Assembly (NCBI RefSeq): GCF_039645985.1
Contig: NZ_CP147919.1
Location: 1,240,001 to 1,304,000 of the forward strand
Origin: Sulfurimonas sp. HSL3-7
GTDB lineage: Bacteria; Campylobacterota; Campylobacteria; Campylobacterales; Sulfurimonadaceae
Length of the DNA stretch: 64,000 bases
Direction: 5' to 3'
Under the pieces are notes generated by a model that ran no database searches, was not told where the DNA came from, and saw nothing but the letters and a program-made list of their open reading frames with translations. The position numbers and the translations under genes are program-made. Positions 26,501-54,480 of this stretch are shown piece by piece (within the stretch, counting starts at the first letter, position 1; each line of letters opens with the position of its first letter).

Positions 26501-26626
26501 AAAGTGGAGCTCAAAGGCAGTGCAGAGCGGCCGAAAGTGACGATCGATGCGTCAAAACTCATCGAAAAAGAGCTCAAGAAAGAGGCCGGCAAAAAGATAA
26601 ACAAGCTGCTCAAAGGACTCTTCTAG
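23576..26626 (+). CDS. AsmA-like inner-membrane-anchored repeat protein
   Basis: Start at ATG 23576 (AAAGG upstream) gives 1016 residues: a short cytoplasmic end, one membrane anchor (WFGIVLSVLLVLLIALYTLLF), then a long periplasmic part. The periplasmic part has four internal repeats beginning at 23900, 24428, 24956 and 25484, each exactly 528 bases (176 codons) apart, with recurring segments such as KPLTNAPLRG, GKSDIAGS, LLYLAGE and LDPQNLQG. The C-terminus has the AsmA/DUF748-type ending KVELKGSAERPKVTID and a basic KKINKLLKGLF tail. Anchor plus beta-rich repeat body fits AsmA-like proteins, now viewed as periplasm-spanning lipid-transfer bridges. This is an architectural assignment; no close named family is recognised. 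Confidence 0.65.
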   Translation: MKWFGIVLSVLLVLLIALYTLLFTPFGNGILKPVLQERLNTSLNAEAVIETFALDMSSFEIKIALTPSNVIAASGTYSPFSQAVDAVYTIAFEKMNELETLLQRRSQGKIHISGTAKGDADVMKIAGESDIASSQTRYDVTLKSFNPAAVIATIDNARLDELLALAGEKAYADARVSLQTEIKGVDVNNFDGDISFLVKNGKVDRALMRRDFNITLPQTRFGVKVVAKLKGDAVDYSAVADSNLLTLNSGGNVIVQPMKMDLDYDLDIKELALLRPLTNAPLRGAFATKGNVKGDEAALNILGKSDIAGSDSRYDITLSHFKPSKVLATVKNAKLSKLLYLAGEEKYAEADVNLNVDLSDLDPQNLQGSAKLDVSSGTVFPKTMKKAYSIALPKTDFNTRFSADLKGKEIDYTLALLSNLAQINSKGSFEPGTMKSDIAYDLNIKELALFKPLTKAPLRGPFATAGQIRGDKEAMQIKGHSDIAASQTTYDIALKAMQPSKLQAQIKNARLEKLIFMAGEPAFANGELNVDIALDELDPDDLQGNVKATVSKASFSEKVLKNSYKIDLPKTAFSSDISAKLAGKDIAYTAAFVSDLAKIDSKGNIQPKTMAMDLDLKLAIAKLELLKPITNAPLRGPFSLSTTAKGDEKSLTVEGKAKIAGADAGFNARLESFAPRTLKAKIADMQLAKILYMTEQLHYADGLLNVDVNIDDARQGKLSGKILSSVTKGRVDTKTVEKAFEFTAMPKTTFTAKTVSVLSKNRIDTKIDVASNLAGLKVKRARFDVEKGSLHADYRAEIPDVDKLYFATQRHLKGAVTATGELSKAKDLDFSAHSKLFGGRIDAKLHNDDFHADMTKLNTLGVLKMLIYPEIFDSNLDGKLDYNLAKKSGTFHAKTRNGHFTKNQMLDLVKQYGKKDLYKENFVSTFNSRIREEHIYTDLDMRSNKSSITGKNVYLNSKTKQIKAKLDINANNNPLKVELKGSAERPKVTIDASKLIEKELKKEAGKKINKLLKGLF
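23900..26011 (+). repeat. Four in-phase 528-bp protein-coding repeats
   Basis: Repeat units start at 23900, 24428, 24956 and 25484, with a degenerate fifth start just after 26011 (KGAVTATGELSKAKDL). Each unit opens with a KGD/RGD-containing segment and ends at the PLRG segment of the next. Identity is moderate at protein level and low at DNA level, so the duplications are old but length has been held at 176 residues. Confidence 0.8.
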
Positions 26627-32010: not shown

Positions 32011-32036
32011 CAATGTTTATATTTAAGGATGTGATG

Positions 32037-33947: not shown

Positions 33948-33949
33948 CG

Positions 33950-37424: not shown

Positions 37425-37975
37425 TACAGCTTTTCAGCAAGGATGAGTCGCTCTTCAGACGTCTCAACGAGATAGGAATAGCGTACCAGGGGGTTACGGA
37501 TATCGATGCGGACGAAGAGAAGGTCTTTGTCTCCGATGTCGACAGCTTTGCCTCACTGCTTATGCATTACCCGTCGGCAAAAGTGTTCGTTTTAAGTCCG
37601 ATGCCGAATTTTACTGAAGGTGTAACGCTGCTGCAGCAAGGGGTCAGGGGTTACGGCAACAGTTATATGCAGAAGACACACTTCTGCCAGGCCGTCGCCA
37701 CTATCGAAAACGATGCGATCTGGATCTATCCGGAACTGATGCAGGAACTCATACTGCAGGGGTCCAAAGCGGTAATCAGCAACGAAGATGTTTTGGAATC
37801 ACTCAGCGTCCGTGAGCGGGATGTGGCGAAAGAGCTGGAAAAAGGGTTGAGCAACAAAGAGATCGCCTTGGCTCTTGCGATCACCGAACGCACCGTCAAG
37901 GCGCATCTCAGCTCCATCTATGAGAAGCTCGGTGTCAGCGACCGTCTGGCGCTGGCCGTACTGCTGCGAAAATAA
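37421..37975 (+). CDS. LuxR-type regulator with degenerate receiver domain
   Basis: 184 residues. The N-terminal about 115 residues are receiver-like in pattern (VFVLSPMPNFTEGVTLLQQGVRGYGNSYM) but lack the usual phospho-acceptor Asp and conserved Lys in the right setting. The C-terminal HTH is a clear NarL/LuxR type: LSVRERDVAKELEKGLSNKE, then ITERTVKAHLSSIYEKLGVS. It is translationally coupled to the LapC-type gene, as the last gene of the secretion operon, so it probably controls adhesin or secretion genes without classical phosphorylation. Confidence 0.82.
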   Translation: MIQLFSKDESLFRRLNEIGIAYQGVTDIDADEEKVFVSDVDSFASLLMHYPSAKVFVLSPMPNFTEGVTLLQQGVRGYGNSYMQKTHFCQAVATIENDAIWIYPELMQELILQGSKAVISNEDVLESLSVRERDVAKELEKGLSNKEIALALAITERTVKAHLSSIYEKLGVSDRLALAVLLRK

Positions 37976-38063
37976 ACGTATTTATCACTTCTGTTGCTCA
38001 TTGATAGGCCGCAGGCAGAAACTGACCGGAAATTTTATTCCGGCACTTGAGGTTTAAAATTGC

Positions 38064-39575
38064 CTATTTATTCTCATAAGGGCGATAGGCCAGAACGACC
38101 CGCCATTCTTTGTTGTTGAGTTTGACACTCTGCCAGATGGCCTCTTTGATAGCTTTTTCGTCGGATTCTGGTGCAAGATAGAGGTAGCTCCCTTTACCCG
38201 CGGGCGCCGAGACGATCTTTCTGCTCAGCTTAAGCAGGTTTTTGTAGTCCGCATAGATAGGGTCGGTGAAGAGCATTCTGCCGATCTCCGACTTGTCCTG
38301 ATCGTAGATGATCATGCCATCGGGCTGCATGATCCAGAGTTCATAGTCTTCGGGGATGGCGGTTTTTTTAAGCAGGGAGTCGACCAGCAGTTCGGGACGG
38401 ATCAACAGGTTGACGAAGCCGGCAAAGGCATTTTTGCTGTTGTAAAGGGGGCGGGAGACGACCACCGCCGTAAAATTTTCGACTGCCGTAAATCCGTCGC
38501 TGAGCAGCGGTGCCGGTTTTTTCATCATGGCCTTCACATGTTCCTGGGAGCTGATGTCCGAATTTTCGAAGTTTTTGTATTCTCTCGGCTCTACCATACG
38601 CATAATGCCCTTGGTATCGACAAAAGAGGCTTCGACAATGTCGGGGTTTTCGTCAAGGAGGGTGTTGAGGAGTTTCCTGATCTCACTCTGTTTTTTGACA
38701 TCCACTTTGCTTTTTTCGATCAATGTTGCCAGCGATCCGTCGATTTGGTTCAAACGCTTTTGCAGTCCGGGTACAAAGCGATCGAGCGAAAGTTTCAGTT
38801 TCGGCGGCGTCGCAGCTTTCGTCCCCTCTATTTTGGCCAGGAACATCCACCACTCCATGTTGGGCAGTTTCAGGTAATTTCCGTGGCGGGGACTGTCGAG
38901 TTCGTACTGCACGGGGCCGCTTTCGTTTTTGAGGGCTTGTGTGACGGCGTCACGCAGAGACTTGCTCCCCTGCGTCAGTGCGTTCATGAAGATGAAATCA
39001 CTGTCGTTGTCAAGCATCATCATCCCCTTGGAGTTCAGGACAAACCAGGTGTACTCCCCGGGCAGGGCAATCTCACGGTTGAGCTTTTCTTGCAGTTCGT
39101 CCAGGAAGACCGAGGCGCCGAGTGCACCGGTCACCTTGCCATTCGTCACGATAGGCGCAGCCATCAGAGCCGACTTCTTTCCGGACGAGCGGCTGTAGAT
39201 CGGAAAACCCATGATAGGGTTGCCGGCAAACAGTGAATGGAAATAACCCCGGTTGCTCAGATTGAGATTGGTGTAATCGAGTGCTACCGAGTAGTAGTTG
39301 CCATCGGGCAAAACATAGAAATAGACCCCCGGTGTAACCGCTTCAAGCTGTTTGAGGTAGCGCTTGATCCCTTTCCAGTCGCCGTTTTTGGCCTCCGGAG
39401 TAGAGGCAATCATCTTAAGAGATGCCAGGGTGTTCATCAACACGCTATCCAGATAGTGCGATGCTGTGTTGAGCGTAGTTTTTGGGACTGCCGTCTTCGG
39501 GTTTTGGGCAGCAGAAGCTGCCCATGCTGAGCTTGCCAAGATGAAAACAAACAGCGCGGAAATGACCTTTTTCAT
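38064..39575 (-). CDS. Exported double-Cache sensor-like protein without output domain
   Basis: 503 residues. A signal peptide (MKKVISALFVFILASSAWA) is followed by two Cache-like periplasmic sensor halves: about 35-245 (GVYFYVLPDGNYYSVALDYTN, split as GVYFYVLPDGNYYSVAL; then NRGYFHSLFAG and APIVTNGKVTGALG) and about 280-500 (ENPDIVEASFVDTKGIMRMV, SRPLYNSKNAFAGFVNLLI). Unlike chemoreceptors or kinases with such domains, it has no second membrane segment, HAMP or signalling output. It may be a periplasmic ligand-binding partner of another receptor. It lies between the secretion operon and the adhesin, on the adhesin's strand. Confidence 0.72.
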   Translation of the reverse strand: MKKVISALFVFILASSAWAASAAQNPKTAVPKTTLNTASHYLDSVLMNTLASLKMIASTPEAKNGDWKGIKRYLKQLEAVTPGVYFYVLPDGNYYSVALDYTNLNLSNRGYFHSLFAGNPIMGFPIYSRSSGKKSALMAAPIVTNGKVTGALGASVFLDELQEKLNREIALPGEYTWFVLNSKGMMMLDNDSDFIFMNALTQGSKSLRDAVTQALKNESGPVQYELDSPRHGNYLKLPNMEWWMFLAKIEGTKAATPPKLKLSLDRFVPGLQKRLNQIDGSLATLIEKSKVDVKKQSEIRKLLNTLLDENPDIVEASFVDTKGIMRMVEPREYKNFENSDISSQEHVKAMMKKPAPLLSDGFTAVENFTAVVVSRPLYNSKNAFAGFVNLLIRPELLVDSLLKKTAIPEDYELWIMQPDGMIIYDQDKSEIGRMLFTDPIYADYKNLLKLSRKIVSAPAGKGSYLYLAPESDEKAIKEAIWQSVKLNNKEWRVVLAYRPYENK

Positions 39576-39818
39576 TTTTTTCTCCTGTGTTTACTTATGA
39601 TGCTCCGGCAACATACGGCTTTTGTGCTGTATACGTTGTTCAAGAGAAACATAAAGTAACGATTTAATGCATACGGATCTATTCTATCACATTTTTGATC
39701 TAAAAATTCAGATTCGAAATAACGGCAAGCAGTTACGGGTTGGCAGTGGCAAAGTATTCGGTAAAAAAACAGCTGCCTGGGGCAATCCCTGATGACTGTT
39801 TCCGGGGGAGAGCGGCTT

Positions 39819-40139
39819 TTAAAACTTGTGTTCGAGCTTGATGGTGGTCTGTTCCTTGTTGTCGATCAGTTCGCCCTGTTTGAGTTCCGGGGCATATTCC
39901 ACGCCGATAGAGGTGTTCTTGTCGATCTCGGTCTTGAAGAGTTCTATAGCGACACCTTCAACGACCGGTTTGGGCTGGTCGGTCAATATGCGAAGCCGTT
40001 CCTGCTCCTTTGTCTCGGGCATACGGGTGTCTTTGATGCTCTCTTTGACCCCACTGATGTTGCCTTCTTTCAGTCTGTCGACAAGGGTTTCGGCATGCAG
40101 AGTAGTTAAGAAGATAAAAAGTAAAAATAGGATTTTCAC
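39819..40139 (-). CDS. Small exported hypothetical protein
   Basis: 106 residues with a signal peptide (MKILFLLFIFLTTLHA). The mature part is charged (VDRLKEGNISGVKESIKD) with a beta-like C-terminal half ending TTIKLEHKF, a pattern seen in small outer-membrane or periplasmic proteins. No family recognised. It lies downstream of the adhesin on the same strand, across a tandem repeat region. Confidence 0.55.
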   Translation of the reverse strand: MKILFLLFIFLTTLHAETLVDRLKEGNISGVKESIKDTRMPETKEQERLRILTDQPKPVVEGVAIELFKTEIDKNTSIGVEYAPELKQGELIDNKEQTTIKLEHKF

Positions 40140-40619
40140 GAAAATTGGCGCCTTTTGTAATGTCGGAAATGAAGTTGATGACCCATTATGATATTGAAAT
40201 TATATAGCAGAGAAATAAACGGACGTACTCAGAGATACAGGACGCTTGGCAGCATTGAATTGAACACGGCATAAAGTCTGTATAGTTAGGCACTTAAAAG
40301 GCTAAAGCCTGATAGAGGATAGAACTGAATTCTGTATCGTAAAATGCCGAGTTTGAGGAGAACTCAGCCTTAGCGTAGCGTCGGGGGCTTTGCCTCAAAT
40401 CGTTGAAAGAAAAAAGTGCGGTTTAACTGCACGTGGGCACTCTGCTGAAGATGACCAAAGGAAATACCTTCAGGTGGAACTTAGCGTTAGCGTAGCGTCG
40501 GGGGCTTTGCCTCAAATCGTTGAAAGAAAAAAGTGCGGTTTAACTGCACGTGGGCACTCTGCCTAAGAGAACTTAGCGTTAGCGTAGCGTCGGGGGCTTT
40601 GCCTCTGACGCGTATAAAA
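40140..40619. other. Non-coding region downstream of the adhesin gene
   Basis: About 480 bases between the small exported protein and the adhesin stop codon. The right half is occupied by a 117-bp-period direct repeat (described separately). The left part (40140-40369) holds no gene; it contains a short imperfect hairpin aaggctaaagcct near 40300. Confidence 0.5.
40370..40605. repeat. Direct repeat, 117-bp period, 2 full copies plus a partial
   Basis: A 76-base block starting ttagcgtagcgtcggggg and ending gggcactctgc occurs at 40370-40445 and again, identical as far as I can read, at 40487-40562. A third, truncated copy (27 bases, to ctttgcctc) is at 40579-40605, only 14 bases before the adhesin stop codon. 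Each copy contains a small imperfect stem (gtgc...gcac) and is preceded by a short gaact-like segment. Confidence 0.85.
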
Positions 40620-43600
40620 TTATGAAACGACGATATCCTGCTCGATATTGACCGTGACGGCGTTGATGCCGTCGCTGACGATGTAGACATCGACCGTGTG
40701 GCCGTTGCCGTCATCAACACCGGTCGCTGTCTGCATCCATGTCTCAGTACTTCCTACCGGTTTAGAGACATTGTCGCCGCTGTCGCCGTAGATGCTTAGG
40801 ACATTGTCGATGTCTGTCATGTTGATAATATCTTCAACGGTCAGGTTTGAAACAGCGTGATCGGCACCGGCGAGGTCGAGGATCTCCATGTTCTGAATAT
40901 TTGCAATAGTGCTGAAATCCAGGTCGTCACCGCTGCTTAATATCAGTGTATCGGTTCCCAGACCACCATCATTGGAGAGGGCCGCAGCGTCATACAACAT
41001 GATGTCGTTGCCGTTAACAACCAGATCGGCACTCGATGTGTCTCCATCACTGTCCGTCAATGTATAGGTAAAGGTTTCGGTGACATCAAGATTGGTTGTC
41101 GGATTATCGGACAGGGTGTAAGTGACTTCATCCAAATAGATCTTGTCGCCGAATCCGCTGGTCTCGATAACAATATATTTAAAGTCCACATTGCCAACAG
41201 GATCAACCTGTATTGCCTGGTCGGCTGAGCCTAAAAATGATACAACGTCAAACGTAGACTCTTTATAGACAAGGTCCCCGGCTTCATTGAAAGCTGTTAC
41301 TGTCACACTGTCAAAGAAAGAGAAAAAAGAGTCGTCATTGAGATGTAATTGGACATCTGAAACATTCTGGTCGAACTCCATGACAAGGGCCTCAGTGCCG
41401 TCAATAGCGTCACTTGAGAAAAAACCGCCGTCGCCTACGCCGATCCCCTTGGCGTTCTCTGTAACATTGTCAGTAAAGCTGGAAAGATTGTCCAGGTCCA
41501 GTATACCTCCGCTCAGCAGATAGTCGTTGTTCTGGAAGGCATAAAAGCTTACATTATCCCATTCGGCGATCGTACTGCCACCGGTGAGAACGGAGCTCGG
41601 CCCGTTGTAGGTGTACGTGTAATCACCGTTTTGATAAAAGACGATATTCCCATAATCAGCGGCAATGGTGAGCTCTCCGTTGACATCAAAACTGTAAACA
41701 GTACCGTTGAAGGTGATTGAAGTGAGCGCTGTAGACCCATCGCCCAGAATATCGGTCAAGCCGTTGTAGTTGTCCGTGATGACATTGCCTGAAGTTGTAC
41801 TGCCGTTATCAGTCTGTGTGTCGGCTTTATTGTCAAAGGCCTCAGGCAGATGGTCGATAGTAATCGTGCCGGATGTCGTCGTTGCAGTCGATTCATTACC
41901 CGCTGCATCGGTAGCAGAAACAGAAATGTCATAGGTGTAATCCGTCAGTGCGTCGGCGTCCGGAACAGTCATAGACCATGTCCCATTACCATTGTTGGTA
42001 GCGGTGTAGTCGGTACTGCCTATTGTCACAACAATAGTGGCAGTGGGATCATCGGTTGCCCCCGTGATTGTCGGCGTTGTGTCCGTAGTAATGACATCGT
42101 TGACCGTGACATCAGGTGCGGTAAAGTCGGTTAAGACGCTCTTCTGATCCGTCACCGTGTTACCGGCCTTGTCGGCAACGATAGTCGCTGAGACGATGTA
42201 CGTTGAACCGTCACTGAGCGCTGCGATATCTGCGGCCGGAACAGTGACGCTGAAGATGTTGGGCGTCGTGGCGCTGTTCGAGCCTGTTGCGGTGGCCTGG
42301 TAGCTCTTGCCGTTTATTTCGACAACGACCTCATTGCCTGCCACCAGTGTCGTGGTCCCTGTGACCGTTATACCCTGCTGCGTATCGGCGTAATTGATGT
42401 ATTCGCTGATGGCATCGAGCGTGACCGTCGCATCGGCACCGTTAATGCCGTTGCCGCCAGTGGTGTCGGTTACACTGGTGTCCAGAATGACCGTTTGCTG
42501 ATCGGAGGCGATATTGCCGGCGCTGTCGGCAGTGACCTCGGCAGTGACGATATAGGTGCCGTCAGGATAGGCGCTAAAGGTGTCTTTCGGAATGTCCATG
42601 CTGAAGAGACCGTCCTGTGCCAGTGTCGTAGAGAAGAGCGTACCGTCGACATAAATGCTGATGACAGCGCCGTTGGCTGCCGTCGTCGAACCGGATATGA
42701 CGATCAGATTACTGCTTGTCGTTTCGTCCAGATTGATATAGTTGTCACTGATAGGATCAAGCAGGATGGTTGCATCGCCGGCGTCGTCGCTACGGGTGTC
42801 GACGTCGATAATCTGCGTCTGGGAAACCTGGTTGCCGGCTGTGTCCGTTACAGTTGCGACAACCGTGTAGTTGCCGTCGGCCAACGGTGTGCTCTGCAGG
42901 TCAAGAGACCAGCTGTTACCGACGACAGTCGCGTCGTAGGGGTTGCCGTTGACTGTCAGAGAGAGGCGGTTACCGCTCTCATTGTCGAAGGTACCCTGAA
43001 TAAGTAGCGACGTATCGTTGGTAATGAAGTCGCCGGCGATGCCTGTATCTTCCGTGATGCTGTCGATAGTAACGACGTTACCTCCGTTACTATTGTTAGT
43101 GTCATCCGGAGCGCTGTTATCAGTAGTGATGGCCTGTGTGATCGTCGTAATGGTACCGGTGCCGGCTTCGGTCTCCGTCACGCTGAGCGTATAGGTGGCA
43201 TCAGCCGCAAGCGGGTTGGCCGTCAGATCAAGGCTCCAGCTGCCGTCGGAGTTGACCGTCAGTTCGCTGTCCGCAGCCGTGTAAACAACCCCGTCCATAG
43301 TGACTTCCAGGGTATTGTTTTGCGCATCGACCATCGACCCCGAAATGACAAGGGTCGTGTCCTGGGTGATGAAGTCGGCACTGCTCAGACCGGTGTCAGT
43401 CGTGATACTCTCGACGTTGAGCACGCCTGTCACCGGCGTGATGATGATATCTTTTGAGACGTCGGCACTGTTGCCGGCCACATCGACGATGGTCGCCGTA
43501 ACGGTATGGGTCTCGGCGCTCATCGGAAGGGAGGTGAGGTCAAGCGTCCACTCCTTGCCGAGAATGACCGGTGTGTAGACGACGCCGTCTATGGTGAGGA

Positions 43601-46600
43601 CAAGCCGGGTATCGGGCTCGCTGTCGAAGGTCCCTTTGATGATGATCGTCTTGTCGCTGGTCGTGACACTGCCTCCGCTGAAGTTGACCGGCCCGCTGTT
43701 GTCCTCGATGGCGTCTATGGTGACAAGGTTGCCGCCGTTGTCGTTGTCGCCGCCATCGGCAATGATGTCGGTCAGCGTCGTATCCAACAGTACCGTCTGC
43801 GAATCGCTTACCAGGTTTCCTGCGGCATCGGCAGCGACCTCTGCCGTAACGGTGTAGGTGCCGTCAGGGTAGGCTGTAAAGGTGTTTTTCGGTATATCAA
43901 AACCGAAGGTACCGCCATTGGCCTGGACGACGGCAAACTCTGTGCCGTCAACACGGATCGTGATATCCGAACCGTCGAGAGCCGTTGTCGTACCGGTGAT
44001 GGCGACAAGGGTATCGCTTGTCGTCTCGGCCAGGTTGATGTAGTTGTTGCTGATCTCATGCAGCGTGATCGTCGCATCGGCTCCGCCGAGGGTGTTGCCG
44101 TTGCCGTTGTTGTCAGAGTTGCTGGTGTCGACCGTGACATCTTCCGTGTCGCTTGCCGTGTTGCCCGCCTCGTCTGCGACGACGGTCGCGGTGACGATGT
44201 AGGTGCCGTCGTTCAACACCGTCAGCTCTTCGGTCGGTATCGCAACGGAGAAGGTGTTCGGCGTACCGGCGATATTACCGCCTGTCGCCGTGGCCGTGTA
44301 GCTCTTGCCGTTCAACTCGACGGTCACCTCATTGCCTGCGATCAGGGTAGTGGTGCCGGTTACCGTGATTCCGGACTGGGTCTCATCGAGGTTGATGTAA
44401 TTGTCGCTGATCTCATCCAGCATTACGGTGGCGTCGGCACCGCCGATACCGGTCCCGCTGCCGTTGTTATTTGAGGCAGTGGTGTCGACGATCACATCTT
44501 CGGTGTCGCTGACCGTGTTGCCCGCCTTGTCGGCTACGACCGTCGCCGTTACATCATAGGTGCCGTCTGTCAGGAGTGCCAGGTCTGCGGCCGGTATCGT
44601 CACCGAGAAGGTGTTTTCAAGAGTGTCGAGGTTCCCGCCGACGGCTGTTGCCGAGTAGGTTTTCCCGCCGAGTTCGACAAGGACTTCATTGCCGGAGACC
44701 AGGGTCGTCGTCCCGGTGACCGTGATACCCTGCTGGGACTCTTCGAGGTTGATATAGTTGTCGCTGATCTCGTCAAGTGTTACGGTCGCATCGGCCCCGC
44801 CGATACCCGTACCGCTGCCATTGTCATCCGTGCTGCTTGTATCGATGACAATATCTTTAGCGATCGTGACGACATTGCCGGCAGCGTCGGTGACCGTAGC
44901 TTCAACGGAATGGGTCCCGTCTGTCAACGGGGTGCCTTCGAGGTTGGCTTCCCACAGCTTGTCCGTGATGACAACAGGGACAACAATGCCGTTCAGCGTG
45001 ACTTCCAGAGCGTTACCGGTCTCATTGTCATAGGTACCGCGAATGATCAAGGTAGTGTCGTTCGTGATAAAGTCGTTATTGAATTCACCGTTGTCCTCGG
45101 TAATGCTGTCGATGCTGACGACCTTGCCGCCGTTGTCGTTGTCAGCGTCGTTCAAAACAGTATCGACAACGATTTCACCTGTTACGACACTCTCGTTGCC
45201 GGCCGGATCGGTCGCGGTAACGGTTACTGAAGTCGGACCTTCAGGTAGTGCAGCGATTGTGTCGTCGTCCAATGTCCATGTCCCGTTACCGTTGTTGTTC
45301 GCGGTGTAGTCGTTGCCGCCGACAGAAACGATGATATCCGCGTCACCGTCGTCGGTCGTTCCGCTGATGGCCGGTGTCGTGTCGTTGGTCACGAGAGGGT
45401 TGATCGTAACAGAAGGGGGTGTCGTATCGACAGCGATCGAGCCGGTTGTTGTCGTTGCGGCCGTCGATTCATTACCGGCGGGATCAGTAGCGACGACGGT
45501 GATCATCGTATCACCGGGCGTCAGAGCATCTTCATCCGGAACAGTCACACTCCAGGTACCGTCACCATTATTGGTTGCATCATAATCGGAACCGGCGACG
45601 GTAACAACAATTGAAGCCGTTGTGTCATCTACGGTACCGCTGATCGTCGGTGTGGTGTCATTGGTAAGCAGGTCATCGACTGTGACAGAAGGGGGCGTCG
45701 CATCGACCGTGATGACCGCTGTATCGGTTGCGGTGTTGCCGGCAGGGTCGGTCGCGGTGACGGTAACAGTGGTGTTACCCTCAGGCAGTGCACCGGTGAC
45801 CGGTACACTCCAGGTGCCGTCGCCGTTGTTGGTGGCTGCATAGTCGTTGGCGCCGATGGTGACAACAATTGAAGCCGTTGTGTCATCAACGGTACCGCTG
45901 ATCGTCGGTGTGGTGTCATTGGTAAGCAGGTCATCGACTGTGACAGAAGGGGGCGTCGCATCGACCGTGATGACCGCTGTATCGGTTGCGGTGTTGCCGG
46001 CAGGGTCGGTCGCAATAACCGTAACAGCGGTGTTCCCTTCAGGCAGTGCACCGGTGATCGGCACCGTCCAGGTGCCGTCGCCGTTGTTGGTGGCTGCATA
46101 GTCGTTGCTGCCGACAGAGACAATGATCTCTGCATCCGGGTCGTTGGTGGTCCCGCTGATCGTCGGCGTCGTGTCGTTGGTCAATATGTCATTGAGGGTG
46201 ATTACGGCAGAAGTGTCATCGACGACGAGACCGAATTTATCGTCTTCCTCGTCCATAAAACCCTGTTTGGCGGAATCGGATTGCGCAAGCATGCTTGAAC
46301 CTGCATCGCCGAGGTTGTCGATATGGTGAACGAAACCATCGACGATCAAGGAAGAGCCGCCGACGGCCAGAGGCTCGCCTGAAGCGGTCTCTTCAAATAC
46401 AGAGAGGTTGGGGTCTTCTGTGAGTATTGTCTTGAGCGAATCGACTTCGGCCTGTGTCAAGTCACTATCGAGCGCCAGAGCATCATGAACACTTTTGTCA
46501 AGGGCGACGCTTTGATTCGGTCCCACGGTAATGGAAGAGCCGTCTGCAAAGCGGATAACGACCTGAGCGTTTGCACCCGTACTGATGATATCACTCTCGG

Positions 46601-46700
46601 AGAGCTGCATATTTTTTGTCAGCTGTGCTGTTGTTCCGTTGCCCAATGTCAACGTCGCGTCACCGGAGATATTTTCGATATAACCAATTTGTATAGACAT
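40620..46700 (-). CDS. Giant LapA/Bap-like type I secreted adhesin with retention module
   Basis: 2026 residues, no classical signal peptide. Residues 1-125 are a LapA-type retention module (MSIQIGYIENISGDATL, ANAQVVIRFADGSSITVGP) with a candidate LapG cleavage site at ETASGE (104-109). Then come about 14 Ig-like modules of three classes: five of about 86 residues (TNDTTPTISGT), four of about 100 (ITEDTGIAGDFITNDTSL type) and five of about 110 (GGADATVTLDEISDNYINL type). A beta-rich C-terminal region (about 1640-2026) contains VCBS-like TFTYTLTDSDGDTSSADL and ends in the secretion signal region; a classical run of RTX nonapeptides is absent. AAAAAGG precedes the start. Expected role: c-di-GMP-controlled surface attachment and biofilm. 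Confidence 0.88.
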   Translation of the reverse strand: MSIQIGYIENISGDATLTLGNGTTAQLTKNMQLSESDIISTGANAQVVIRFADGSSITVGPNQSVALDKSVHDALALDSDLTQAEVDSLKTILTEDPNLSVFEETASGEPLAVGGSSLIVDGFVHHIDNLGDAGSSMLAQSDSAKQGFMDEEDDKFGLVVDDTSAVITLNDILTNDTTPTISGTTNDPDAEIIVSVGSNDYAATNNGDGTWTVPITGALPEGNTAVTVIATDPAGNTATDTAVITVDATPPSVTVDDLLTNDTTPTISGTVDDTTASIVVTIGANDYAATNNGDGTWSVPVTGALPEGNTTVTVTATDPAGNTATDTAVITVDATPPSVTVDDLLTNDTTPTISGTVDDTTASIVVTVAGSDYDATNNGDGTWSVTVPDEDALTPGDTMITVVATDPAGNESTAATTTTGSIAVDTTPPSVTINPLVTNDTTPAISGTTDDGDADIIVSVGGNDYTANNNGNGTWTLDDDTIAALPEGPTSVTVTATDPAGNESVVTGEIVVDTVLNDADNDNGGKVVSIDSITEDNGEFNNDFITNDTTLIIRGTYDNETGNALEVTLNGIVVPVVITDKLWEANLEGTPLTDGTHSVEATVTDAAGNVVTIAKDIVIDTSSTDDNGSGTGIGGADATVTLDEISDNYINLEESQQGITVTGTTTLVSGNEVLVELGGKTYSATAVGGNLDTLENTFSVTIPAADLALLTDGTYDVTATVVADKAGNTVSDTEDVIVDTTASNNNGSGTGIGGADATVMLDEISDNYINLDETQSGITVTGTTTLIAGNEVTVELNGKSYTATATGGNIAGTPNTFSVAIPTEELTVLNDGTYIVTATVVADEAGNTASDTEDVTVDTSNSDNNGNGNTLGGADATITLHEISNNYINLAETTSDTLVAITGTTTALDGSDITIRVDGTEFAVVQANGGTFGFDIPKNTFTAYPDGTYTVTAEVAADAAGNLVSDSQTVLLDTTLTDIIADGGDNDNGGNLVTIDAIEDNSGPVNFSGGSVTTSDKTIIIKGTFDSEPDTRLVLTIDGVVYTPVILGKEWTLDLTSLPMSAETHTVTATIVDVAGNSADVSKDIIITPVTGVLNVESITTDTGLSSADFITQDTTLVISGSMVDAQNNTLEVTMDGVVYTAADSELTVNSDGSWSLDLTANPLAADATYTLSVTETEAGTGTITTITQAITTDNSAPDDTNNSNGGNVVTIDSITEDTGIAGDFITNDTSLLIQGTFDNESGNRLSLTVNGNPYDATVVGNSWSLDLQSTPLADGNYTVVATVTDTAGNQVSQTQIIDVDTRSDDAGDATILLDPISDNYINLDETTSSNLIVISGSTTAANGAVISIYVDGTLFSTTLAQDGLFSMDIPKDTFSAYPDGTYIVTAEVTADSAGNIASDQQTVILDTSVTDTTGGNGINGADATVTLDAISEYINYADTQQGITVTGTTTLVAGNEVVVEINGKSYQATATGSNSATTPNIFSVTVPAADIAALSDGSTYIVSATIVADKAGNTVTDQKSVLTDFTAPDVTVNDVITTDTTPTITGATDDPTATIVVTIGSTDYTATNNGNGTWSMTVPDADALTDYTYDISVSATDAAGNESTATTTSGTITIDHLPEAFDNKADTQTDNGSTTSGNVITDNYNGLTDILGDGSTALTSITFNGTVYSFDVNGELTIAADYGNIVFYQNGDYTYTYNGPSSVLTGGSTIAEWDNVSFYAFQNNDYLLSGGILDLDNLSSFTDNVTENAKGIGVGDGGFFSSDAIDGTEALVMEFDQNVSDVQLHLNDDSFFSFFDSVTVTAFNEAGDLVYKESTFDVVSFLGSADQAIQVDPVGNVDFKYIVIETSGFGDKIYLDEVTYTLSDNPTTNLDVTETFTYTLTDSDGDTSSADLVVNGNDIMLYDAAALSNDGGLGTDTLILSSGDDLDFSTIANIQNMEILDLAGADHAVSNLTVEDIINMTDIDNVLSIYGDSGDNVSKPVGSTETWMQTATGVDDGNGHTVDVYIVSDGINAVTVNIEQDIVVS
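45604..46013 (-). repeat. Near-identical 258-bp coding repeat in the adhesin
   Basis: The 152-base block at 45604-45755 recurs at 45862-46013 with a single difference, offset by 258 bases (86 codons). It encodes consecutive VDDLLTNDTTPTISGT-type Ig modules. Near identity at DNA level means recent duplication or ongoing gene conversion. Confidence 0.85.
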
Positions 46701-46840
46701 GATAAGCCTTTTTAATATTAATAAAAGTTATAGATTCTATCTCACTTTTGTCAGGCAAGTCTATTGTACAAAGGTACTAGTAATATAAAAAATATTTATC
46801 TGACTTCTTTTGCGGCGATGCACATGAGCGTGTGACATGG

Positions 46841-46846
46841 TATAAT
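46841..46846 (+). promoter_or_regulatory. Putative -10 box of the lapG-lapD operon
   Basis: TATAAT in the context acatggtataatcc, giving an extended TGn-type -10, 33 bases upstream of the LapG GTG start. The adhesin promoter must lie in the same 178-base divergent region, on the other strand. Confidence 0.5.
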
Positions 46847-46878
46847 CCAGCAAAATAAAAGTCGGGAAGGATACCGGG

Positions 46879-47511
46879 GTGATCAGTAGAGTCGTTTTTG
46901 TACCGCTTTGTGTCACCCTTCTTTTGGCTGAACCTTATGTCAGTGAACTTTTGACCGACAGAATCGAAGCAAAATACGGCTCTTTTGCCAAAAACAGGTT
47001 TGCACTGCTAAACAAGATCATGGACGATGCCAGAGGCCAGGACGAACTCCGGCAGCTGGAGATCATCAACGACTTCTACAACGGTGTCCCCTATCTTTCC
47101 GATGAAAAAAACTACAAGAGCAAGGATTACTGGGCGACACCGCTGGAGTTTCTCGGACGCGACCGCGGCGATTGCGAAGACTATGTGATCGCCAAGTATT
47201 TTGCACTGAAGTTTCTGGGCATCGATACCAACAAGCTCTACTTCACCTATGTCCGATCGCGAAAGTTCAACGCGCCGCATATGGTCTTGACCTATTTCGC
47301 CACGCCGGATTCTATCCCTTTGGTCCTTGACAACTTCAACTACCGGATCTTCCCGGCAAACGAGCGTAAGGATCTTCTCCCTGTCTACAATTTTAACGGC
47401 GATAACCTCTACATCGCGCAACAGGCCGGTTACGGCGAAAAGGTCGACCGGAAACAAAGTTTCAAGCAGTGGGACGTGCTGCTGCATAATATTCAAAGGC
47501 AAAAACTATGA
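46879..47511 (+). CDS. lapG: LapG-type periplasmic cysteine protease (BTLCP)
   Basis: 210 residues starting at GTG (GGAAGG upstream). A signal peptide (ISRVVFVPLCVTLLLAEP) is followed by the bacterial transglutaminase-like cysteine protease domain: Cys99 in RDRGDCEDYVIAKY, His134 in NAPHMVLTYF and Asp151 in VLDNFNYRI form the catalytic triad; acidic residues around Cys99 fit the calcium site of LapG. In Pseudomonas LapG cuts the N-terminal retention module of LapA and frees the adhesin. It is divergent from the adhesin gene and overlaps lapD by 4 bases. Confidence 0.92.
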   Translation: MISRVVFVPLCVTLLLAEPYVSELLTDRIEAKYGSFAKNRFALLNKIMDDARGQDELRQLEIINDFYNGVPYLSDEKNYKSKDYWATPLEFLGRDRGDCEDYVIAKYFALKFLGIDTNKLYFTYVRSRKFNAPHMVLTYFATPDSIPLVLDNFNYRIFPANERKDLLPVYNFNGDNLYIAQQAGYGEKVDRKQSFKQWDVLLHNIQRQKL

Positions 47512-49418
47512 CACTCTTTAAACAATTGGCACTTCTGTTATCACTTTTTTTACTGATCATCCTCACCACGGTGACGGTCCAGAACTTTACGTCGACGATC
47601 GAGAACGCCGAGCAGCAGCTCTACAGTGATGCGCAGAACACGGCCGCCTCGCTGAGTCTTTCGCTGGCTGCGGCCAACGGTGATGAGAGCACCATGGCCA
47701 CGATGATCAATGCCAATTTCGACAGCGGCCACTACCGCTGGATCGTTTTGAAGAATAGGAATGAAGAGGTGATCCATGAGCGTGTAAGAGATGACTGTTC
47801 GCCCGATGTTCCGGAGTGGTTCGTCGATCTGGTCGGTATTGATGTCCCTGTGGCCGCGGCGCCGGTCTCTTCGGGCTGGATGGTCATCGGCACGCTGAGC
47901 GTGGAGGGTGATGACTCGCATACCTATTTGATGCTTTACAACTCGTTCAAACAGCTGCTCGGAAGTTTTGCATTTTTTACGCTTGCGAGCCTGACGGCAC
48001 TCCATCTGCTGCTCTACACCATACTGGCACCGCTGCGACTGCTTCAGAAGCAGGCGGAGGCGATAGGCAGGAACGAATTCCGCTACCAGGAGCGGCTGCC
48101 GTTCACCAAAGAGTTTCGCGAGATCGTTGTCACGATGAACGCGATGGTCAAAAAAGCAGAGAACAGTTTCAAGACGGGAAGCCGCGCAGTTGAGCAGAAC
48201 CGCAGGCTGCTCTACACCGAAAAACTGCCCCGACTTTATAACGAGCACTACCTGATGCTGACCTGCCAGGAGGAGCTGATGGGCAGCGGTGAGTACGACG
48301 GGGGTGTGGTCGTGATCGCAGAGTTCAGCGGTCTTGAGATCGCCGAGTCGCAGCTGGGCAGGGAGGGGGCTGAAGAGCTGCTGATCGAACTGGCGACCTT
48401 TTTGATAGAGAAGGCTTCGCTTGCGACGAAGGGGTTGGTGGCCCGTCTTTCCAAAACACGTTTTGCGCTTCTGTTGCCGGGCTCGAAAGAGGCCGACGCG
48501 GCCATTATCGTCCGCGCCGTTTATGAAGGCTTCCAGAAACAGCTCGAGGCGTGCAGGCTTGACGACTGCGATCTTCTGATAGGCTCCTATGCCTTCAATG
48601 CGGAAGAGAGCTATCAGACCTTTATGCGCAGGGCGATAGAGAATATCGCTGACGTAAAAGAAGGGCTTCCTCCACAGGATCACCATCTCGAGCCGGTGCA
48701 GTTTATGCAGTCACAGTGGGAAGCGCTCATCAATGCGGCACTGGAAAAAGAGCGTTTCAGCTATCATGTCCGTAATGTCCTCGACGCATCGACCGACACC
48801 ATCTATGACAGGGCCATTACGATCGTTATGCATGACGAGGGCGGCAAAGAGTACCCCTACGGGCGGTTTATCGCGCCGGCCGTCAAGGCGCACAAAGTCC
48901 TGGAGATCTATCTGCAGGTGATCAAGCTGATGGTGCAGAACTTTACGGAGAGCGACAAGCAGGGGCGCTACACCTTTTCGCTGGCGAAGAGCCTGTTGCT
49001 CGAAGAACGCACCTTCGCCGCGCTTCAGGAGGAGTTTGAGAAGTTTGAAAACACCCACCAGCTTGACTTCTGTATCGAGCTGCCTGAGAGTTTCATCGCC
49101 GATGAACAGGCAATGGCCAAGCGGTACGTTGATCTTATCAAGGCGCACGGCTACCGCTTCGGCATCGGCGAGTTCAGTGCCGAATCCGAGAACCTTGCCT
49201 ACCTTGAACAGTTCAGACCGGAGTTCATCAAGATCAGCAAACTCTATCTGCTTGATATGATCGCAAAAGAGTCGCCGCTTCTGGCCAGTCTGCAGACGGC
49301 GGCCGACTCCCTGGGGATCAGGATCATCGCGACCGGTGTCAGCGGTGAAGATGAACTTGCAATGATTAAAGCAGCAGGAATCACGATTGTTCAGGGATAT
49401 ATCACCGAAGTTATATAA
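47508..49418 (+). CDS. lapD: LapD-type c-di-GMP receptor with degenerate GGDEF and EAL domains
   Basis: 636 residues: membrane segment 5-25, periplasmic LapD domain about 26-150 with Trp124 in VSSGWMVIG (the position equivalent to the LapG-binding Trp of Pseudomonas LapD), second membrane segment about 152-175, HAMP about 176-228, degenerate GGDEF about 235-390 (LSKTRFALLLPG replaces GGDEF) and an EAL-like domain about 395-636 lacking the EAL signature and the DDFG motif (GIGEFSAESENL). It therefore cannot make or cleave c-di-GMP but may bind it and sequester LapG. It overlaps lapG by 4 bases. Confidence 0.9.
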   Translation: MTLFKQLALLLSLFLLIILTTVTVQNFTSTIENAEQQLYSDAQNTAASLSLSLAAANGDESTMATMINANFDSGHYRWIVLKNRNEEVIHERVRDDCSPDVPEWFVDLVGIDVPVAAAPVSSGWMVIGTLSVEGDDSHTYLMLYNSFKQLLGSFAFFTLASLTALHLLLYTILAPLRLLQKQAEAIGRNEFRYQERLPFTKEFREIVVTMNAMVKKAENSFKTGSRAVEQNRRLLYTEKLPRLYNEHYLMLTCQEELMGSGEYDGGVVVIAEFSGLEIAESQLGREGAEELLIELATFLIEKASLATKGLVARLSKTRFALLLPGSKEADAAIIVRAVYEGFQKQLEACRLDDCDLLIGSYAFNAEESYQTFMRRAIENIADVKEGLPPQDHHLEPVQFMQSQWEALINAALEKERFSYHVRNVLDASTDTIYDRAITIVMHDEGGKEYPYGRFIAPAVKAHKVLEIYLQVIKLMVQNFTESDKQGRYTFSLAKSLLLEERTFAALQEEFEKFENTHQLDFCIELPESFIADEQAMAKRYVDLIKAHGYRFGIGEFSAESENLAYLEQFRPEFIKISKLYLLDMIAKESPLLASLQTAADSLGIRIIATGVSGEDELAMIKAAGITIVQGYITEVI

Positions 49419-49497: not shown

Positions 49498-50226
49498 ATG
49501 AAAAAAGCTCTTTTCGTACTGCTGCTTTCTGCTGTCGCACTGATGGGCGACGAAGCCCATGATATTATGAAGAAGATCGACAACAATATCCGCGGTCAGA
49601 ACATCTATCTGCAGATGAAGATGACCATTACGTCGATGGGCCATACACGGACAATGAAGATCCAGACCTGGGCCAAAGGGACGAAGAAAAGTTTTGTCAA
49701 GACCATCTACCCGCCCAAAGACAAAGGCATTACCTTTTTAAGCCTGGACAACCAGATGTGGCAGTATGTGCCGAAGATCGAACGTATCATCAAGATACCG
49801 CCGTCGATGATGCTGCAAAACTGGATGGGATCGGACATCACCAATGACGACATGGTCAAGCAGAGCTCTATCGTCGACGATTACGATCCCAGGATCCTTG
49901 ACAAAGAGGGGACGGTCGTGACGATGGAACTAACGCCCAAAGAGGACGCTGCCGTCGTCTGGGGAAAGATCATCTCCTACATCGATACCACGACCTACAC
50001 CAGCCAAAAAGATATCTTTTATGACGAAGACGGTAAAGAGGTGCGCATCTTTTATTACGAAAACGTCAAGAAATACGGCCCCTACTATATGCCGACATAC
50101 TGGAAACTCCAGCCGGTCGACAAGCCGAACAACCGTACCGAGATCTTCCTGGAAGAGGTCAAATACGACAGTGATATCTCAGAGCAGTACTTTCAAAAAA
50201 GTGCGCTTAAAAGGTTCTCCCGCTGA
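49498..50226 (+). CDS. LolA-like outer membrane lipoprotein-sorting protein
   Basis: 242 residues with a signal peptide (MKKALFVLLLSAVALMGDEA). The body matches the LolA-like COG2834 family (PF17131 type): TIYPPKDKGITFL, MWQYVPKIERIIKIPPSMM, NWMGSDITNDDMV and the C-terminal KYDSDISEQYFQ. These periplasmic proteins have a hydrophobic beta-half-barrel that carries a lipid or lipoprotein. It is the first gene of a five-gene operon with two LolC/E-like permeases, a LolD-like ATPase and a beta-barrel protein; its stop overlaps the next start by one base. AAAGG precedes the start. It is not the housekeeping LolA. Confidence 0.83.
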   Translation: MKKALFVLLLSAVALMGDEAHDIMKKIDNNIRGQNIYLQMKMTITSMGHTRTMKIQTWAKGTKKSFVKTIYPPKDKGITFLSLDNQMWQYVPKIERIIKIPPSMMLQNWMGSDITNDDMVKQSSIVDDYDPRILDKEGTVVTMELTPKEDAAVVWGKIISYIDTTTYTSQKDIFYDEDGKEVRIFYYENVKKYGPYYMPTYWKLQPVDKPNNRTEIFLEEVKYDSDISEQYFQKSALKRFSR

Positions 50227-51443
50227 TGTTCAGGCTCGCACTTAAAAACATCCTCTTTTACAAAGGGCGCTCTATCACCACCTTTGTGCTGACCTTTGTC
50301 TCCGCGCTCTTCTTTATCGTCTATGTGGCGATGATGGACGGTTCGCACAACTCGATGCTGCAAAATGCGCTTAAAGTCTATACCGGTGCCATCGAGATCT
50401 ATAAAAAAGGGTACCGTGATATCGGCGGCAACGAGTATCTTATTACCGATGTCCGCTCGATCGAAAAGAAGCTGGAGAAAATAGCGGGGATCGCCGCGTA
50501 CACCTCACGCTACGAGACCTACGGGCTCTTGTCCTCCGCCGAGCACTCAGCGGCGGCGATGGTCGCGGGGGTCGATCCTGACAAAGAGAGGGGCATCAGT
50601 GAGCTTGAAGTGGCGCTCGTCGAAGGGGCGTACCTTGCACAAGACGGCGGCAACTGTCTCTACGCCGGTGCGGACCTTGTCAAAAAGCTGCAGGTCAGCG
50701 TGGGTGACGAGATCAGTTTTGTCGGCGGTGCCAGCGACAACTCGTTTGCGGCCGACATCTTCAGGCTCTGCGGTATCTTTAAGACAGGCTCTTTCGAGTT
50801 TGACGCTTCGTCGTCGTTTATTGCCCGGAACTATTTTGACACGCTGATGTATGCTCAAAACAAGGCATCCTATATCACGATCAAACTCGATGACATCAAC
50901 AGAGCCGATGCGGTCAATGCAGAGATCTCGAAAGCGTTGGACAGCGACTATGAGAGCGTGACGTGGAAGGTCCTGATGTCGTCGATGGTCGAGGCGATGG
51001 AGGTCGACAGCGTCTTCGGATATATCAGTATGTCGCTCTTTTTTGTGGTGATCTTCTTTGTGGTGATGATCTACAGTTTTATCAATGCCAGTGCACGGGT
51101 CAGAGAGTTCGGAACACTGCGCTGCATCGGTCTTTCAAGCGCCAACATGCAGGCGCTGCTGTTTTACGAGATCTTTATCCTCTCGACGGCGGCGATCCTG
51201 CTTGCCGGACCGATAGGCGGCTGCATCAACTACTACTTCAGTGTCAACCCCATCATCATCCCGGGGATCAGCGAGACCTATAAAGAGTACGGTATCGTTT
51301 CGGACGAGATCCCTTTCGATTTCAACCTCTTTACCATCAGCTGGAATATTGCGGTGATCTATGTGCTCAATTTCCTAAGCATTATCTACCCCGTCAGCTA
51401 TATCAATGCGTTCAAACCCATAGAGGCGACACATCATGTATAG
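50226..51443 (+). CDS. LolC/E (FtsX-type) ABC permease A
   Basis: 405 residues. N-terminal membrane segment at about 20-40, a large periplasmic domain, then three membrane segments in the last 150 residues. The FtsX-type core reads FINASARVREFGTLRCIGLS and the C-terminal end SYINAFKPIEATHHV. Periplasmic domain and topology match LolC/LolE/MacB. The next gene encodes a second, related permease with an 8-base overlap, so a heterodimer as in LolCDE is expected. Confidence 0.85.
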   Translation: MFRLALKNILFYKGRSITTFVLTFVSALFFIVYVAMMDGSHNSMLQNALKVYTGAIEIYKKGYRDIGGNEYLITDVRSIEKKLEKIAGIAAYTSRYETYGLLSSAEHSAAAMVAGVDPDKERGISELEVALVEGAYLAQDGGNCLYAGADLVKKLQVSVGDEISFVGGASDNSFAADIFRLCGIFKTGSFEFDASSSFIARNYFDTLMYAQNKASYITIKLDDINRADAVNAEISKALDSDYESVTWKVLMSSMVEAMEVDSVFGYISMSLFFVVIFFVVMIYSFINASARVREFGTLRCIGLSSANMQALLFYEIFILSTAAILLAGPIGGCINYYFSVNPIIIPGISETYKEYGIVSDEIPFDFNLFTISWNIAVIYVLNFLSIIYPVSYINAFKPIEATHHV

Positions 51444-52647
51444 TGTTATCCTCAAACTGGCATGGAACAACGCGTTTTTACGACTCCGGCGTACGCTGCT
51501 GGTCATCATCATGATCGCGGTGAGCATGAGCATGATGCTCAGCATAGAGGGGATCTACGACGGCATGGTCATCAACATGGTGGACAAGACCATACGCAGT
51601 GACAGCGGTGATATCAGCATCTATAACCCGAAGTACCGCCTCAACAAACTCCTGCAAAACAGCATCAAAGGTGCCGACGAGATCAAAGCCGCACTTGAGA
51701 CCCGTCAGGATGTCGAATCGGTCGTCACGCGTTTCAGTGTCGAGGGGCTCAGCTCAACGGCGCACAAATCGTCCTTTTCCAGCATCATCGGTATCGACCT
51801 GGACGATGAGGAACGTTTCGGCGCCTTCAGCGACTTTTTAAAAGAGGGCGAGATCAGTTTCGGCAAACGCGGGGCGCTTATCGGCAGCGAACTGGCAAAG
51901 ACCCTGAAGATACGCATCGGCTCAAAAGTGGTCTTCACGACGCAGGACAGCAGCGGCGACATCAACGCTATCGCCGTGAGGATCAGAGGCATCGTGCAGA
52001 CGACCAATATCGTGCTTGATGCAACGGCGCTCTATATCGACAACAAGCGGCTGCACACCTTTTTGGGCGTCGGTGAAGACGAAGCGACACAGATCGCGAT
52101 ACGGACAAAATCAGAGACGCTTCAGCAGGAGCTGCAGAAGAGATACAAGAGGCTCGACGTGCTGAGTCTGATGGATCTCAACCCGATGCTCAAGATGATG
52201 GAAGATATGATGGTCATCTTTAACTCCATCACCTTCGGTATCGTGATGATGGTGGTCTTCATCGGGATACTGGGTGTAATGTATGTCTCGATCCTCGACC
52301 GTATCCGGGAGTTCGGCATCATGCGCGGTATCGGCATGCCGTTCAGGCTGATCCGCCTGCAGATACTGCTCGAAGCCCTCTTCGTCGGGCTGCTGGGGTA
52401 TCTGACCGGTGCGGTGCTGGGGGTGGCGGCACTGCTCTATCTCCAATACTTCGGCCTCGACATGAGCGCCTGGGCAGACGGGTTGGAGAGTTTCGGGTAT
52501 GAATCGATCATCTACGCACACATGCAGATCAGCTATTTTACGAACACCTTCCTGGCGATCATCGCGGCATCGCTTCTGAGCGTCCTGTTGCCGCTCAGAA
52601 AGATCAAAACACTCAACCCTATCGAGGTCATAAAGGCAGAGACATGA
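51436..52647 (+). CDS. LolC/E (FtsX-type) ABC permease B
   Basis: 403 residues, four membrane segments: one near 20-40 and three in the C-terminal third. The core segment YVSILDRIREFGIMRGIGMP and the ending KTLNPIEVIKAET are typical of FtsX/LolC-E permeases. Related to, but clearly distinct in sequence from, permease A. Overlaps the ATPase gene by 4 bases (ATGA). Confidence 0.86.
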   Translation: MYSVILKLAWNNAFLRLRRTLLVIIMIAVSMSMMLSIEGIYDGMVINMVDKTIRSDSGDISIYNPKYRLNKLLQNSIKGADEIKAALETRQDVESVVTRFSVEGLSSTAHKSSFSSIIGIDLDDEERFGAFSDFLKEGEISFGKRGALIGSELAKTLKIRIGSKVVFTTQDSSGDINAIAVRIRGIVQTTNIVLDATALYIDNKRLHTFLGVGEDEATQIAIRTKSETLQQELQKRYKRLDVLSLMDLNPMLKMMEDMMVIFNSITFGIVMMVVFIGILGVMYVSILDRIREFGIMRGIGMPFRLIRLQILLEALFVGLLGYLTGAVLGVAALLYLQYFGLDMSAWADGLESFGYESIIYAHMQISYFTNTFLAIIAASLLSVLLPLRKIKTLNPIEVIKAET

Positions 52648-53315
52648 TAAAACTGGAGAATGTGCAGAAATATTTCTACCGGGGCGAACCCCGGGAGGTC
52701 CATGCGCTCAGAGACATAAACCTGACCATCGAAAAGGGTGAGTACACCCTCTTCAACGGCCCCTCCGGGTGCGGAAAAACGACGCTTCTCAACGCCATCG
52801 GTGCGCTCGACGATGTCGACAGCGGCACGATCTACCTCGACAACAGGGATATTACGCTCCTTGATGAGAAGGAGCGGACGACGCTGCGGCTCAACGAGAT
52901 GGGCTTTGTCTTTCAGGCCTACAATCTTGTGCCGGTACTGACCGTAAGCGAGAACATCAGTTTCATCATGAAGCTGCGGGGGTTCAGTGAAAAAGAGATC
53001 AATGAAAGGGTGCTGGAAGTCGCCTCGATGCTGGAGATAGACAACAAGCTGGGCGCGCTACCCAATACCCTCAGCGGCGGCCAGCAGCAGCGCGTTGCCG
53101 TGGCCCGTGCGGTAGCGGCCAAACCCAAGATCATTCTGGCTGACGAGCCGACAGCAAACCTGGACTCCAAAAACTCAACGGCGTTGATGGAGATGATGCG
53201 GTCGCTAAACGAGAAAGAGGGGGTGACGATCATCTTTGCCTCGCATGATGAGTATGTCGTCGAAAGTGTAAGGCGTATTGTGAAGATGAATGATGGGGCT
53301 ATCGTTGACAGTTAA
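52644..53315 (+). CDS. LolD-type ABC transporter ATPase
   Basis: 223 residues. Walker A GPSGCGKTT at about 41-49, Q-loop VFQAYNLVP, signature LSGGQQQRVAVARAVA, Walker B IILADEPTANLDSKN and H-loop FASHDE. This is a typical LolD/MacB-class ATPase. It overlaps permease B by 4 bases and the beta-barrel gene by 26 bases, so all five proteins of the operon are made together. Confidence 0.9.
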   Translation: MIKLENVQKYFYRGEPREVHALRDINLTIEKGEYTLFNGPSGCGKTTLLNAIGALDDVDSGTIYLDNRDITLLDEKERTTLRLNEMGFVFQAYNLVPVLTVSENISFIMKLRGFSEKEINERVLEVASMLEIDNKLGALPNTLSGGQQQRVAVARAVAAKPKIILADEPTANLDSKNSTALMEMMRSLNEKEGVTIIFASHDEYVVESVRRIVKMNDGAIVDS

Positions 53316-54480
53316 AAGAGCGCTCGTCTTACTGGCCATAGCAGCAGTGCCGCTTTTAGCAGATCTTGACTATACCGTCACCAATACGAACTTTACGATC
53401 TCCCAGCCCTCCGTCTTCCCGGGTGCAGATACGAGCTATCTCTACAACTATGACAGGCTGCGGTTGCGCAGCGACTACACCAACGGCGGTTTTTTTGCGA
53501 CCTTCATCGGCGACGGGGTGAACTATCTGGGTGATGATTATATCGCGAGTGACTCTTTTGACTATACCAAACAGCTGGAGTCCGACACCCCGTTTAAAAC
53601 ACAGACCTCTTTTCATGACTACAGCGGCGGGACGGTCTACGCCAAGCTGTATCGTCTCTACGGCGGGTACGAAGACGCGGAGAACCGGCTGACGGCAGGT
53701 TTGATAAACGTCACCATGGGGGTAGGGCGTATCTGGACGCCGACCAACCTTTTCAACCCGCGCAACACCTACGGCCTCGAACCGGATGAAGTCTTCGGCG
53801 TCGCCGCTCTCTCCTATACACGTCATCTCTCCGGCACGTCGGACCTGACGGTCGTGGCCAGTCAAAAGGCGGACGGCAGTTTCAAATACGCAGCCCGCCT
53901 GAAGGCTTTTTTGGAACTGGGTGATGTCGCAGCCAATGCGGTCCGTTCCGACGAGACATTGATGCTGGGGTATGAGATCGAAGCGAACCTCGCTGATACC
54001 GGTATCGAAGTGCGCAGCGAAGGCGCCTACATCAAAAACAACAGTGTCGCCAGCTATCATGCCGATAGCAACACGACAGAGGAGGAGAGTGTCGCGTTTT
54101 TCCAGGGTATAGTCGGGGCCGATTACGGTTTTGAAAACGGCATCACCGTTGTCGCCGAAGCGCTCTACAGCTCGGAGAAGTTTGCCTACAACGACATCCT
54201 GCCCAACATCGATTCGGAGATCTTCTCCAACCTTGTCTACTCCAGGTTTTACATGGCGGCAACCGTCAGTTACACCTTCAACCTCTTTTTGGACGGCTCG
54301 CTTCTCTACATTGAGAGTTTTAACGACCGGAACTCCCGCTTTGTCTCACCGGCATTGACCTACACCCTCAACGACTTCAACAGCTTTACGCTCGGGGGCA
54401 TGCTCCAAAACGGCCCTGCAGGGAGCGAGTTCGGATCATTCGGCAACACCTATTTTTTCGAATGGCAGCTAAGCTTTTAG
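53290..54480 (+). CDS. Outer-membrane beta-barrel-like protein of the Lol-like operon
   Basis: 396 residues with a signal peptide (LSLTVKRALVLLAIAAVPLLADL). The rest is rich in aromatic amphipathic strands (YLYNYDRLRLRSDYTNGGF, YAKLYRLYGGYEDAENRLTA, MAATVSYTFNLFLDGSLLY) and the protein ends NTYFFEWQLSF, with the terminal Phe that serves as a signal for outer-membrane assembly. No named family is recognised; RIWTPTNLFNPRNTYGLEPDE resembles porin-like proteins found with lipid exporters. It overlaps the ATPase gene by 26 bases, so it is probably the outer-membrane partner of the transport system. Confidence 0.7.
   Translation: MMGLSLTVKRALVLLAIAAVPLLADLDYTVTNTNFTISQPSVFPGADTSYLYNYDRLRLRSDYTNGGFFATFIGDGVNYLGDDYIASDSFDYTKQLESDTPFKTQTSFHDYSGGTVYAKLYRLYGGYEDAENRLTAGLINVTMGVGRIWTPTNLFNPRNTYGLEPDEVFGVAALSYTRHLSGTSDLTVVASQKADGSFKYAARLKAFLELGDVAANAVRSDETLMLGYEIEANLADTGIEVRSEGAYIKNNSVASYHADSNTTEEESVAFFQGIVGADYGFENGITVVAEALYSSEKFAYNDILPNIDSEIFSNLVYSRFYMAATVSYTFNLFLDGSLLYIESFNDRNSRFVSPALTYTLNDFNSFTLGGMLQNGPAGSEFGSFGNTYFFEWQLSF

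Follow-up and report, generated by a model that had tools for sequence, protein, structure and literature searches.

The five-gene cassette and its parts

The window analysed here is a stretch of 64,000 nt that corresponds to positions 1240001-1304000 of a genome consisting of one contig (C1, 2.87 Mb), which comes from a Campylobacterota bacterium; Sulfurimonas and metagenome-assembled genomes of 'Helicobacteraceae' are its closest named relatives. Within this window, positions 49498-54480 are filled by five open reading frames of the + strand, and each of them overlaps the following one (by 1, 8, 4 and 26 bases, successively), in agreement with the overlapping five-gene operon described in a first-pass annotation of this DNA. 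The identities given there to its products (a LolA-like carrier, two permeases, an ATPase and a barrel-like protein) were likewise borne out by Pfam matches, hydropathy, motifs and a model of the barrel.

The first gene (49498..50226) encodes a putative periplasmic carrier of 242 aa, which belongs to the LolA_like family (PF17131) with an E value of 5.9e-44 and a score of 150.3 bits, the gathering cut-off being 30. It is followed by the genes for permease 1 (P1; 50226..51443, 405 aa) and its paralogue, permease 2 (P2; 51436..52647, 403 aa). Both permeases contain MacB_PCD and FtsX domains and four predicted transmembrane helices, the first at the N terminus and the other three at the C terminus, separated by a periplasmic domain of ~215 residues; according to Pfam and hydropathy, this organization (1+3 helices, a large periplasmic MacB_PCD and an FtsX domain) is that of type VII (MacB-like) ABC permeases. 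The fourth gene (52644..53315) encodes a 223-aa ATPase of the LolD/MacB/FtsE kind (ABC_tran, E=3e-33), with the motifs GPSGCGKT (Walker A), LSGGQ and ASH (H-loop). The last one (53290..54480) encodes a 396-aa protein which, from its AlphaFold2 model and its conserved linkage, is predicted to be an 18-strand outer-membrane beta-barrel. As judged by eye, the carrier and barrel proteins have N-terminal signal peptides; a lipobox was looked for in both and found in neither, and the last residue of the barrel protein is Phe. By family and predicted fold, the set of parts would then be complete for a path from the inner to the outer membrane, as had been claimed.

Structure prediction of the barrel and the carrier, which the first-pass annotation had proposed as a check, gave a porin-like barrel of 18 predicted strands and a carrier with a predicted LolA fold. 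The carrier model is of middling confidence (pLDDT 67; shallow alignment). Its best fold matches are 4z48, 3bk5, 3buu and P. gingivalis LolA3 (9tp6), the true LolA and LolB structures being more distant. The register of LolA Arg43 falls on Lys64 of the carrier, by way of a short, low-probability match only (residues 82-98). The barrel was modelled from 12 relatives, also with middling confidence (mean pLDDT 63, pTM 0.60; shallow alignment), its strands following the signal peptide. The structures nearest to this model (Foldseek, VIA-align 2) are OprD/Occ channels, the alginate exporter AlgE and the Campylobacter MOMP, with Z about 21-22, rmsd 3.2-4.2, 285-325 residues aligned and ~10% identity; these three are among the matches listed, and the lack of Omp85-type barrels in that list is no proof of difference. 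The barrel has no Pfam family (DUF2490 came up at just E 0.018, in 4 of 12 members), and no solved structure related to it by sequence was found. A predicted fold in common with OprD, AlgE and MOMP does not establish the function of the barrel.

Conservation and genomic surroundings

A phylogenetic profile of the five genes, also recommended in the first-pass annotation, revealed the co-inheritance of carrier and barrel (397 genomes) and a kept gene order (22 loci). The barrel is encoded in 30 of the 397 Campylobacterota genomes searched, a count obtained from 35 matches minus five weak ones; the latter (family f7), partial matches to proteins of ~700 aa, were set aside as unrelated. In every one of the 30 barrel-bearing genomes, a PF17131 gene lies on the same contig as the barrel gene (within 7 kb in 26 of them). 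The order carrier-P1-P2-ATPase-barrel, on one strand, is complete in 21 of the 22 readable relative loci, including those of Vibrio and Persicobacter, and L024 is the readable locus without a carrier nearby. Inserted genes are tolerated in several copies. The spread beyond Campylobacterota is based on two plasmid-collection records, from Vibrio campbellii (L102) and Persicobacter (L103), which show an identical gene order and a recognizable relative of the barrel (best E values of 4e-6 and 3e-12, respectively). Since the gene order is kept in three phyla, chance can be excluded: the cassette is a real, conserved unit. The suspicion that the barrel could be an unrelated porin with no conserved linkage, formulated in the first-pass annotation, does not agree with these counts.

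One variant of the cassette (L039 4254-11735) has three P1-type permeases, one of them sitting between the ATPase and the barrel.

The flanking genes vary among loci. The operon does directly follow lapD, as reported, with a gap of 79 bases between lapD and the carrier gene. The tie that such a position implied did not hold: lapG-lapD is shared with the nearest relative (L019) alone, i.e., in 1 of 22 readable loci, and a functional link to lapG/lapD was ruled out on this basis. No consensus promoter was found upstream of the carrier gene and, therefore, the cassette is possibly transcribed together with lapG-lapD in this strain. These two genes are part of a LapA-type setup (window 32013-49418) which comprises an OmpA-domain TolC-like protein, an ABC exporter, an HlyD adaptor, a 2026-aa adhesin with Big_13 Ig-like repeats, lapG and lapD. 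GGDEF genes are present near several cassette copies, at varying positions. The gene immediately preceding the cassette encodes a TetR-type regulator in a Campylobacterota genome (L038 9030-9614, Pfam) and in Persicobacter (L103 10453-11049, by eye); the window and most relatives have no TetR gene beside it.

Relation to Lol and to other carrier systems

According to the first-pass annotation, the operon was distinct from the housekeeping Lol system, a claim that would fall if it were the only Lol system in the genome. A separate housekeeping locus exists elsewhere: it contains lolA (PF03548; C1:1506085) and the gene for a LolC/E-type (lolC/F) protein (C1:1502076), with secA between them. This lolA is the sole PF03548 match in the genome, and the cassette carrier matches PF17131 only. 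The 'Lol' family label itself did not find support. With the lolCE model (TIGR02212, cut-off 362.45), P1 and P2 score 103.6 and 76.5 bits, in a test in which the housekeeping LolC/E-type protein of the genome also remains below the cut-off (246.8); with the LolD model (TIGR02211), the cassette ATPase scores 189.9 bits against a cut-off of 307.75. In a tree whose long branches limit deep placements, P1 and P2 are outside the branch formed by E. coli LolC, LolE and the housekeeping LolC/E-type protein. From sequence comparison, membership of the cassette in Lol proper is not supported. In the same tree, P1 and P2 make up one clade each, and these separated before the copies of Campylobacterota, Vibrio and Persicobacter diverged, which is what a heterodimer would predict. 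In general terms, the cassette resembles LolABCDE in combining a type VII ABC complex with a periplasmic carrier of predicted LolA fold, but differs from it in the carrier family, in the tree position of its permeases and in having an outer-membrane barrel of its own instead of LolB.

The genome has a second PF17131 gene (C1:1583306; L040 8351-13282), in a separate locus, beside a divergent TetR gene and the genes for a 387-aa barrel-sized protein and a 751-aa MMPL pump. Its carrier matches both PF17131 and DUF1329, the AmeB family, and the module as a whole resembles AmeABCD of Castellaniella, which consists of a DUF1302 outer-membrane protein, the DUF1329 carrier AmeB and an RND pump (PMC6394551). 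In the carrier tree, the carriers of ABC loci and those of other loci form two clean sister groups (100/100); these other loci are mostly of the RND type, an RND fragment being seen in 20 of 30 within a short flank only. In addition, the barrel profiles of the ABC and RND modules match each other (E 1.4e-7, 81 columns around MGVGRIWTPTNLFNP; reversed control 0.33), albeit in one motif region of a kind that might arise in unrelated large barrels. Taken together, the sister groups and the profile match point to one carrier-and-barrel design with two kinds of motor.

Other RND (MMPL) operons, such as AmeABCD and PG1175-1181 of P. gingivalis (the species of LolA3), also have a LolA-superfamily carrier and, in several cases, TetR control. 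In AmeABCD, as in the sister module of this genome, an outer-membrane barrel or barrel-sized protein adjoins the carrier. Unlike all of them, the cassette is driven by a two-permease ABC pump, and in Campylobacterota its carrier belongs to a separate clade. PG1175-1181 includes TetR, MMPL and PF17131 genes together with ABC ATP-binding proteins; it is raised 13-136 fold under iron deficiency (PMC10434189) and is among the most-raised genes under limited hemin (PMC10470040). The aryl polyene transport system ApeL-ApeM-ApeN similarly pairs a LolA-like chaperone with a dedicated inner-membrane pump, but this pump is of the RND type, the acceptor is LolB-like and the genes lie inside a biosynthetic cluster (PMC8253772). 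Type VII permease domains are shared with MacAB-TolC, and mechanotransmission, the working principle of MacB, which carries no cargo over the inner membrane (PMC5985334), is likely to apply to the cassette too; in the cassette, however, a soluble carrier and a porin-like barrel replace the MacA adaptor and TolC. No paper naming the exact five-gene set was found in the open-access literature, to which the search was largely devoted.

Candidate mechanism and competing readings

To our knowledge, few routes are known by which hydrophobic molecules cross the periplasm, i.e., Lol, Lpt, Mla/Mce and TolC pumps. With somewhat better than even confidence, we propose that the cassette is an ATP-driven shuttle, complete in itself, that takes a hydrophobic or amphipathic, probably non-lipoprotein, cargo across the envelope, and the ABC counterpart of the modules made of carrier, barrel and RND pump. 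Because the relative loci share no neighbouring gene for making a cargo, the hydrophobic class of the cargo is assigned by analogy, and a general envelope lipid or an environmental hydrophobic compound seems likelier than a product made by a dedicated cluster. The direction would presumably be that of export. Solved 18-strand relatives of the barrel (OprD, AlgE, MOMP) pass mainly water-soluble substrates, which counts against a hydrophobic cargo.

In the proposed mechanism, P1 and P2 would assemble as a heterodimer with two copies of the ATPase and operate by mechanotransmission of the MacB/LolCDE type: ATP binding and hydrolysis would move the periplasmic domains and, in this way, lift the cargo off the outer leaflet of the inner membrane. 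The LolA-like carrier would then take the cargo into its hydrophobic cleft and cross the periplasm, and the loaded carrier would dock on the 18-strand barrel, where the cargo could be released into or across the outer membrane.

An unlikely, yet credible, alternative is that the cassette expels toxic hydrophobic compounds (solvents, fatty acids, terpene-like molecules) and takes no part in envelope building. Such a role would suit its patchy distribution within the family, the TetR genes found directly upstream in two ABC-module loci and beside the genome's own RND module, and the link between AmeABCD and monoterpene metabolism, as AmeB is required for full growth of Castellaniella on monoterpenes (PMC6394551). 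But the window and most relatives lack an adjoining TetR gene, and an ABC pump that has two permeases and works with a soluble carrier would fit a one-to-one handover better than bulk efflux.

A little more doubtful still is a second Lol pathway for a subset of lipoproteins (e.g., surface lipoproteins), with the barrel replacing LolB as translocon or insertase. Its arguments are the predicted LolA fold of the carrier, the fact that lolCE is the best-scoring NCBIfam model for P1 and P2, and the Borrelia system BBJ23-BBJ29, in which a MacB-like permease, a LolA-like protein and an Omp85-type barrel have been proposed to handle lipoproteins or another non-polar ligand (PMC13078400). That system has a single (homodimeric) permease and two TPR proteins, whereas the cassette has two permeases, a predicted porin-like barrel of 18 strands and no TPR proteins. 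Against a second Lol pathway, the genome already possesses the housekeeping one, the permeases are placed outside the LolC/LolE branch and no conserved lipoprotein gene is linked to the cassette among the relative loci. Furthermore, a deletion of lolA3 in F. johnsoniae caused no phenotype, and the PF17131-type LolA3 of P. gingivalis, which lacks the LolA arginine, scarcely binds LolB (PMC13103446).

Finally, retrograde transport, in which the barrel would admit a hydrophobic nutrient and the carrier would convey it inward to the ABC complex, is highly improbable: the predicted barrel fold is indeed closest to OprD/Occ-like uptake channels, but the roles described for MacB/LolCDE-type pumps are export, trafficking and sensing, with no cargo carried over the inner membrane (PMC5985334), and the sister modules run on RND pumps.

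LolA-like carriers and large porin-like barrels may constitute a general class of trans-envelope exporters with exchangeable inner-membrane motors (two-permease type VII ABC or RND), a view held tentatively and somewhat short of even confidence. Its ABC branch has been found in three phyla and would amount to a hitherto undescribed form of lipid or hydrophobe export that ends in a porin-like barrel and not in LolB, LptD, Omp85 or TolC. As pump, carrier and outer-membrane exit would be compactly encoded together, five genes would suffice to test how the carrier hands over to the outer membrane. The cassette also provides a context for many proteins annotated as 'outer membrane lipoprotein-sorting protein', which may not sort lipoproteins.

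Two other loci of the window deserve mention. A 1029-aa protein (window 23537-26626) with an N-terminal hydrophobic stretch has no Pfam match at E 1e-5 and, by eye, could be AsmA/TamB-like. A separate set of genes for TolC (OEP), an HlyD adaptor and a MacB-type permease (window 5069-9461) corresponds to a tripartite pump.
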